NCBI RefSeq assembly: GCF_007860185.1
Contig: NZ_SJPY01000004.1
Coordinates: forward strand, 186,001-250,000
Origin: Novipirellula aureliae
GTDB taxonomy: Bacteria > Planctomycetota > Planctomycetia > Pirellulales > Pirellulaceae
DNA: 64,000 nucleotides
Direction of reading: 5' to 3'
Numbering within the stretch: position 1 is the first letter of the stretch; each line of letters begins with the position of its first letter. Below the pieces are notes generated by a model. That model made no database searches. It saw only the letters and a program-made list of their open reading frames with translations, and was not told where the DNA came from. The position numbers and the translations under genes are program-made. This document shows positions 22,031-23,610 of this stretch, in pieces.

Positions 22031-22534
22031 CGGATCACGCCACCGGCAGGGGACGAATGGTTGATTTGCCCCCTCATGCCCACCGATGCGTTCCCGCAAT
22101 CCCGAGCAAATAGCTAAAATGCCTTCGGCACATTCGTTAACAAAGATCACGCGGAAACAAAATCGGCATCCTCCGAGACGGCGAATTCTGCGGCTCGGAG
22201 AGACAGGACTACAGGAAGGCCAAGGCGACTCTATTTTGCTAGCATTTGAGATGGAAGGTTTTTTCAAAAAGACTAGTGTATGCACACATGGTGCGTTTCG
22301 GTAAGATTGCCTCCATAGAGGGCAAGTAACGTAAAGGGATTTAGTTTTGTGCGTCTCTCGGACGTGTTCTACAAGACGTAGAACGCTTGCCTCGTTAATC
22401 CTATCGCGGCACTGGTTTGTGTCTGCGGATTAGCAGGCATCTCTGAAGGGTCGACTCGGGCATTTTGCTGTTCCAATCATGGCCACTTCGAGAGAGGTTA
22501 TTCAATTTGAGCGTTTCGGAATGGAGACCATCCC
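22031..22534. other. Intergenic region before the CsrA-receiver fusion gene
   Basis: No gene is supported; short ORFs on both strands have no recognisable domain. The region contains an inverted repeat, CTCCGAG/CTCGGAG (22171-22177 and 22194-22200). Just upstream of the next ATG (22535), GGAGACC overlaps the ribosome binding region and contains a GGA core, the kind of sequence bound by CsrA proteins, so autogenous control is conceivable. Promoter elements were not identified. Confidence 0.45.
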
Positions 22535-23320
22535 ATGCTCGTTTTATCGAGGAAAAAGAATCAAAGTTTACGTTTTCCCAACTTGGGGATTTCGATTGAA
22601 ATCCTTCGCGTAGACGGCAAGACTGTCCGTGTGGGCGTTGACGCCCCCCGCGACGTTCGTGTCCTCCGCGGCGAATTACCCGATACGGAGACATTTAAGA
22701 CCGACGCGTTGGCAGCGCAGGAAACCGAGGCCGCTGACCAAGCCGCCCGTCATGCTCGTCACGAACTTCGCAACCGTCTCAATACCGCCAATTTGGCTCT
22801 GCATCTACTCCAGCGACAACTGGATCTTGGTCGCATCTCGGACGCCGAGCAGACGCTGACACAGGCTGTCGAATCACTCGCAGAACTCGATCGTCTCGCT
22901 TCCGAACCCGTCACGACTCGAAAGCAACTGAAGGCGGATGGTACCTGTCGGGCTTTGGTCGTCGAAGACAACGAAAATGAACGTCAATTGATGGTTGGAT
23001 TCTTGGAGCTTTGCGGATACAACGTCGAGGCCGTGGAAGATGGAGTTGCCGCACTGGAGTATCTACAGAGTCATGAAAAACCCGACATCGTGCTGCTCGA
23101 TATGAACATGCCTCGAATGGACGGGCCCAAAACCGTTTCAGCGATCCGCAGCAACCCCGATTACCAAGGAATCAAGTTGTTCGCCGTCAGTGGCGCTGAG
23201 CAGACGACCGTCCAGATTTCAGTCGGCGATCAAGGGGTCGATCACTGGTTTTCCAAGCCGATCAAGCCTGATCAATTTGCCCAAGATTTGGCCGAAGAAG
23301 TGAAACGTTCGTGCTGCTAG
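22535..23320 (+). CDS. CsrA domain fused to a DHp-like segment and a response-regulator receiver
   Basis: The 261-residue protein begins with a complete CsrA-like RNA-binding domain (residues 1-49), including MLVLSRKKNQSL, ISIEILRV and VGVDAPRDVRVLR. A helical segment (about 65-115) follows, with an H-box-like motif (ARHELRNRLN) resembling histidine-kinase dimerisation domains but without any ATPase domain. The C-terminal receiver domain (about 135-258) has ALVVEDNENE, the phospho-aspartate in VLLDMNMPRMDG, and KPIKP. CsrA normally is a free 60-70-residue homodimer that binds GGA sites in mRNA leaders. Here phosphorylation of the receiver could control RNA binding. The domain assignment is strong; the mechanism is inference. 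The gene is followed by an array of hairpin repeats. Confidence 0.9.
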   Translation: MLVLSRKKNQSLRFPNLGISIEILRVDGKTVRVGVDAPRDVRVLRGELPDTETFKTDALAAQETEAADQAARHARHELRNRLNTANLALHLLQRQLDLGRISDAEQTLTQAVESLAELDRLASEPVTTRKQLKADGTCRALVVEDNENERQLMVGFLELCGYNVEAVEDGVAALEYLQSHEKPDIVLLDMNMPRMDGPKTVSAIRSNPDYQGIKLFAVSGAEQTTVQISVGDQGVDHWFSKPIKPDQFAQDLAEEVKRSCC

Positions 23321-23338
23321 CCCGGTTTGTTCGTAGTT

Positions 23339-23610
23339 AGTAGTGGATCTTGTTAAAGATCCTGCGGTCAGTAATGGATCTTGCCAAAGATCCTGCATTC
23401 AGTAATGGATCTTGTTAAAGATCCTGCGGTCAGTAATGGATCTTGCTAAAGATCCTGCATTCAGTAGTGGATCTTGTTAAAGATCCTGCGGTCAGTAGTG
23501 GATCTTGCCAAAGATCCTGCATTCAGTAATGGATCTTGCCAAAGATCCTGCGGTCAGTAATGGATCTTGTTAAAGATCCTGCATTCAGTAATGGATCTTT
23601 AACAAGATCC
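23339..23610. repeat. Tandem array of 31-bp hairpin units (8 direct units plus 1 inverted)
   Basis: Eight head-to-tail 31-base units occupy 23339-23586. Each is built on AGTA(A/G)TGGATCTTGNNAAAGATCCTGC, with a 7-base stem GGATCTT/AAGATCC and a 4-base loop (GTTA, GCCA or GCTA). The last three bases after TGC alternate between GGTC and ATTC, giving a 62-base higher-order period. A ninth copy (from 23587) carries the inverted core GGATCTTTAACAAGATCC and abuts the priA stop. The array fills the gap between two convergent genes. A single matching unit occurs at 46387-46410. Confidence 0.9.

Follow-up and report, generated by a model that had tools for sequence, protein, structure and literature searches.

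Free CsrA is a small protein subject to sponge RNAs or FliW, and the control of CsrA is understood mainly via these two. In two-component signalling, two-helix hairpins with an H-box are found in the DHp domain of HisKA kinases and in Spo0B and ChpT, DHp-like phosphotransferases without an active ATPase domain. Receivers are coupled to RNA-binding outputs in ANTAR proteins, which work by antitermination according to an excerpt of PMC3369931, and in response regulators with a CsrA output, which passages of a 2007 article (PMC2222644) name with reference to a census of 2006. On the evidence of these passages CsrA response regulators are, as a class, already known, and the regulatory logic that the original prediction set apart from the usual control of CsrA is to that extent less new than implied. 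Among the titles and abstracts listed in the literature searched, which reached little of the subscription literature, none could be recognised as dealing with naturally occurring CsrA-receiver proteins, their histidine segment, or their linkage to kinases; nor did a histidine segment without a kinase, a linkage to hybrid kinases, or a GGA hairpin with covariation turn up there.

The protein described here is encoded in Novipirellula aureliae, in a window that is the whole stretch of 64,000 nucleotides analysed. It shares with the CsrA/RsmA family (E. coli CsrA, Pseudomonas RsmA, RsmE, and RsmN) the same domain and the RNA-contact residues, and in many leaders of the fusion family a looped GGA overlies the ribosome-binding site; unlike free CsrA, the fusion adds about 210 residues of two-component domains. 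Like ANTAR proteins and the CsrA response regulators catalogued in 2006, the family of the window couples a receiver to an RNA-binding domain; in contrast to ANTAR proteins, it has an N-terminal CsrA domain and a histidine-bearing helix pair between CsrA and receiver. This pair is a two-helix hairpin with an H-box as in HisKA DHp domains, Spo0B, and ChpT, in a protein without an active ATPase domain; the differences from HisKA DHp domains are the lack of conservation of the kinase-specific acidic residue and the fusion to CsrA and a receiver. The locus comprises:

22518..22529, + strand: leader element with GGA at 22523-22525 in Shine-Dalgarno position (sequence)
22535..23320, + strand: gene of the CsrA / DHp-like / receiver protein, 261 aa (ORF, Pfam, homologues, selection)
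22535..22678, + strand: CsrA domain, residues 1-48 (Pfam PF02599, E 3.8e-15)
22694..22903, + strand: DHp-like helix pair, residues 54-97 and 101-123 (AlphaFold2 models; hhalign; HisKA E 0.008)
22760..22762, + strand: H76, H-box histidine, motif HELRNRLN (in 59 of 84 homologues)
22949..23317, + strand: receiver domain, residues 139-261 (Pfam PF00072, E 7.1e-21 over 141-250; Foldseek)
23099..23101, + strand: D189, predicted phospho-acceptor aspartate (position in receiver motif)

The protein is probably a response regulator with a CsrA RNA-binding dimer as output, which would be fed by hybrid kinases and, in part of the family, autoregulated. The ORF 22535-23320 (+) is one complete frame of 261 residues with zero internal stops, between genes that we take to be dnaE2 and priA. 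Pfam, the structural model, and the intact ORF all bear out the combination in one gene of CsrA, an H-box-like segment, and a receiver with an intact phospho-aspartate, as it had been read from the sequence; the CsrA match scores 56 bits against a curated cut-off of 27. The AlphaFold2 monomer model (mean pLDDT 84.7, pTM 0.56) contains the strands of the CsrA part (residues 1-4 below 50), helices 54-97 and 101-123, and a complete receiver; it was built on an alignment of 57 sequences that omitted those with degenerate receivers, L037 and L088 excepted. By Foldseek the receiver resembles CheY and RR468 (E about 1e-8), and the protein carries the full receiver set of E144, D145, D189, S219, and K241. 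A Pfam match to Caudo_TAP on the helical segment (E 1.7e-4) was treated as compositional.

The same three-part architecture was sought in other planctomycete genomes and was found there. The alignment holds 84 homologues from 66 planctomycete genomes, 78 of them with a receiver, and is made of best matches, a non-random choice, from the family search and the phylum search plus the locus L040. These are what was kept of 95 distinct ORFs with a CsrA start; the 11 dropped are eight of 63-107 aa and three (L003, L125, L127) that are longer and lack the family segment. A CsrA start off the motif left nine loci (L084, L086, L096, L102, L106, L120, L122, L123, and L135) and the second copy of L121 without a row. 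Residues E/D144, D145, D189, and K241 are jointly intact in 64/84 homologues, the receiver being degenerate in 14 and absent in six; H76 and an intact receiver occur together in 57 of the 84. At least 62 of the 66 genomes have a receiver-bearing copy and at least 51 a copy with an intact receiver (Pirellulaceae account for at least 56 and 45, respectively), all lower bounds due to the entry of only part of the family-search matches into the alignment. In that search, all of the 149 Pirellulaceae genomes matched residues 1-135, since any CsrA passes E 0.001, and fusions are the full-coverage matches with long frames among the Pirellulaceae matches listed. At E 1e-12 the phylum search matched nine of 294 genomes, three Pirellulaceae and six from another single family of the class, and a scan of titled genomes, limited to close relatives, returned 31 loci, with a match over the CsrA part in L039 and L040 alone, both planctomycetes.

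A stop or frameshift between CsrA and receiver was also sought: the 78 receiver-bearing homologues are single open frames, having been picked as open, and one match among the family-search matches listed (G106:C827) has an internal TGA. Of the three Novipirellula genomes analysed, 3/3 have the entire protein, the other two copies being 80 and 82% identical to that of the window. Judged from this recurrence in homologues as a single conserved ORF, the fusion is no accident of the frame.

Residues L4, R6, G34, A37, and R45 of the CsrA part are unchanged in all 84 homologues, including those with a lost receiver, and position 7 is R or K in 69/84. L4 and R6 are presumably RNA-contact residues. 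R45 was equated by eye alignment with Arg44 of RsmA, essential for RNA binding according to an excerpt of PMC3791407. The loss of RNA-binding residues for which the homologues were checked was thus found in none, L4, R6, and R45 being kept in 84/84. Because these contacts are invariant even where there is no receiver, RNA binding looks like the constant function of the family. Six loci (L031, L091, L103, L104, L107, and L130) have a degenerate or missing receiver, no H-box histidine, and the CsrA residues kept.

The description of the central segment as DHp-like is upheld by profile comparison with HisKA. Pfam gives a HisKA match at residues 69-121 with E 0.008 and 16.6 bits, under the cut-off of 26.9. 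With hhalign, 47 helix-pair segments matched seven HisKA domains (five from kinases near fusion genes and two from the N. aureliae genome) with probability 77 and P 2e-5 over 36 columns, histidine on histidine, a match that leans on the selection of the 47 segments for having H, so that their H is invariant by choice; a helical segment taken as control from four of these kinases gave probability 0.1. Taken singly, 11/47 segments match HisKA at E up to 1, and the match to SPOB_a, the Spo0B comparison, is weak (E 0.23 for the window segment, 4/47 segments at E up to 1). When solved structures were searched with a profile of the helix pair, the 13 hits with E of 1 or less (best 0.013) included no kinase, a Foldseek search with the pair returned nothing at E 0.001 or better, and Pfam found no HATPase domain after the pair in the window protein.

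The residues around the histidine bear on the chemistry that the segment may have retained. The roles of H+1 and H+4 in HisKA domains come from authors whom we take to be Willett and Kirby. As stated in passages of PMC3510030, the acidic residue at H+1 is needed for kinase activity and dispensable for phosphatase activity, while T/N at H+4 is needed for phosphatase and dispensable for kinase activity. In the 59 H-bearing homologues, H+1 is E/D in 24 and A in 16 (E in the window protein), H+3 is R in 55, and H+4 is N in 48, as in the window protein (N80). A role of the pair as phosphatase or phosphotransfer site is suggested over that of a self-kinase, because an ATPase domain is lacking and the acidic residue specific to kinase activity varies. 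This conservation points to a DHp domain that may have lost its kinase side and kept the side facing the receiver.

Another possibility, rather unlikely, is that the helix pair is a HisKA-derived dimerising spacer in which H76 has no chemistry and the receiver alone controls CsrA, as the variable H+1 would allow. Seven homologues have an intact receiver and no histidine, and on a quick tree built without the trait columns the histidine changes state seven times and the receiver five times. Against an inert spacer, H76 is present in 57/64 homologues with an intact receiver versus 2/20 of the others (L037 and L088), the rows being related; the co-loss gives a Fisher p of 7.8e-11 on these related rows, and the tree yields two to three well-supported independent pairs and no significance, so that the link between H76 and receiver is suggestive. 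The same spacer would not require that R at +3 and N at +4 accompany the histidine, N occurring at this site in 5/25 homologues without H, nor that helix pair and receiver change slowly within the genus (dN/dS 0.05-0.06 wherever dS is unsaturated), in contrast to the much more variable linker that precedes the helices (pN 0.36-0.47, with dS saturated there). A phosphatase or phosphotransfer site is accordingly preferred to a spacer, with the proviso that the DHp-like segment is not needed for the switch everywhere: H76 appears dispensable in some members, because of the seven intact-receiver homologues without it and because some members with kinase neighbours lack it.

The receiver itself might be merely structural and the protein another CsrA without phospho-control, which is improbable. 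It would agree with the 20/84 homologues that keep the CsrA part with a degenerate or missing receiver and with the presence of nine CsrA matches in the N. aureliae genome; against it are the four receiver residues intact in 64/84 and the kinase-type genes that flank 32/64 homologues with an intact receiver versus 1/20 of the others, a comparison in which flank lengths differ, many of the latter having short flanks. This linkage comes from a search of the flanks with ten kinase-type proteins as queries, in which a match beyond the receiver part was required: a kinase-type flanking ORF is found in 33/84 homologues (38/84 if receiver-only matches count), in 25/39 of those whose flanks reach 900 bp or more on each side, and in 25/76 after the removal of eight query-source or near-identical rows. 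Four of the 33 belong to the 25 homologues without H. The free csrA loci of N. aureliae have such a neighbour in 0/8 cases, and about 2% per locus is expected by chance, a hand estimate from the density of HisKA in N. aureliae (34 places in 7.27 Mb) that would be higher if the relatives have more kinases.

The domain composition of the neighbours is of two types. Among aligned homologues from other genera the two nearest are L012 and L013 (wider loci L137 and L136), where the adjacent gene encodes a PAS-HisKA-HATPase-REC-REC protein; in L098, L119, and L138 it encodes a CheB-CheR-PAS-HisKA-HATPase protein, with an extra REC in L098 and L138. L121 has one CheB-CheR protein without a kinase part. 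In four genomes (L102, L106, L119, and L121), paired CsrA-fusion genes about 11-12 kb apart enclose a run of CheB-CheR genes, two in L106 and three in each of the others, whose members were named by Pfam (two) and otherwise by BLAST or, in L102 and L106, by the printed start.

No HisKA match was found anywhere in the 64-kb window, no kinase hit in the 1.5 kb flanks of the window copy, and none near the fusion in the other two genomes of the genus (1.1-1.5 kb flanks). The N. aureliae genome has two CheB matches, both in CheB-CheR-PAS-HisKA-HATPase-REC proteins (1617 and 1756 aa), and these two hybrid kinases are candidate donors for the window protein.

For hybrid kinases that end in REC the usual phosphate acceptor is a histidine phosphotransfer site, and of the five neighbour kinases scanned four have one or two terminal REC domains; a protein that served as phosphorelay intermediate or phosphate sink (from the REC of a kinase to H76 and on to its own or another receiver), with RNA binding outside the control of phosphate, is nevertheless slightly less probable even than a structural receiver, given CsrA RNA-contact residues that are invariant in the 84 homologues, even in those that have lost the receiver.

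In the favoured response regulator, a hybrid histidine kinase would lead to phosphorylation of D189 of the receiver. The donor in relatives would be the nearby CheB-CheR-PAS-HisKA-HATPase protein, often with REC, or the PAS-HisKA-HATPase-REC-REC protein, and in N. aureliae probably a hybrid kinase encoded elsewhere in the genome. The helix pair would join two protomers beneath a putative CsrA dimer, and the face formed by H76 and N80 could serve the receiver as phosphatase or phosphotransfer site and not as a self-kinase. The phosphorylation state would then alter the binding of target mRNAs by the two RNA sites of CsrA, predicted to recognise looped GGA; some members of the family may have the ribosome-binding site of their own gene among the targets. 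The domains, their conservation, the kinase linkage in relatives, and the covariation of the leader hairpins are observed; phosphorylation, dimer formation, the kinase that serves the window copy, RNA binding, and the direction of control we infer from the sequences. The phosphorylation-controlled CsrA of the original prediction is, on such data, partly supported, because of the architecture, the conservation of RNA-binding and phospho-acceptor residues, and the kinase linkage in relatives. A narrower version is a possibility to be held tentatively: CheB-CheR-PAS hybrids would phosphorylate a CsrA dimer whose kinase-dead DHp acts as phosphatase or relay, a chemosensory-type input would replace sponge RNAs, and a GGA hairpin would provide feedback.

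If CsrA is indeed wired into His-Asp signalling, this would be a second logic for global post-transcriptional control, and the helix pair would be a natural DHp domain kept for phosphatase or transfer chemistry after loss of the kinase side. The kinase linkage supplies candidate partner kinases and, together with the histidine segment and the GGA hairpin, makes the proposed phospho-switch directly testable.

The GGA-containing leader had been proposed as an autoregulatory site. Plain enrichment of GGA was not used for this purpose, because free csrA genes share it and the distal excess is mild: within 20 bases of the start GGA occurs in 34/35 free csrA and 11/29 rpsL leaders of Pirellulaceae, and H-bearing fusions have 0.95 distal GGA per leader versus 0.71 in shuffles. 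A loose hairpin search gave a weak excess: swaps reached the observed mean in 58/2000 cases for H-bearing fusions, 642/2000 for other fusions, and 229/2000 for free csrA. A narrower test required at least three Watson-Crick pairs closing NN-GGA-N or NNN-GGA-NN, with 3' flanks exchanged among genes. A GGA in a hairpin loop is the form to which CsrA binds, and the ANGGAN hexanucleotide loop is the published form according to an excerpt of PMC3791407. The 59 H-bearing fusions have 52 distinct leaders with GGA, and such a hairpin is present in 23 of these, a number that 0/5000 exchanges reach, versus 6.45 expected, the 8-nt loop having been added after seeing the data; with the six-base loop alone the count is 9 versus 3.27 expected (p 0.0008). 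Representatives below 45% protein identity have it in 11/23 versus 2.9 expected (maximum 9 in 5000), free csrA in 2/34 versus 1.3, and fusions without H in 2/22 versus 1.2. Among control geometries, one pair is mildly enriched in fusions (0.016) and another in free csrA (0.03). The stems vary in sequence among leaders (AAGAA/TTCTT, TGGG/CCCA, CGGG/CCCG, GGT/ACC, AGCAA/TTGCT) and therefore covary. Autoregulation is in this way made plausible across the family by covarying GGA-loop hairpins, and less so for the window, whose own leader is a weak member of the family hairpin, with a possible 2-bp stem GG/CC round the 8-nt loop AATGGAGA.

Downstream of the gene, at positions 23335-23599 of the window, a 31-bp unit that contains the palindrome GGATCTTGNNAAAGATCC is repeated 8.5 times. 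A role of this array as CsrB-like sponge was weighed and dropped, its GGA sitting in the stem of the palindrome, a core that occurs 347 times in the genome, alone or in arrays (0 for the reversed-pattern control). CsrA matches number nine in N. aureliae (including L001-L008) and up to 14 in the 60 Pirellulaceae genomes searched. A FliW gene (Pfam) lies at L144:2673-3134 (-), on a contig that carries none of the nine CsrA matches, and adjoins a gene that is presumably flagellin/FlgL-like by its sequence.
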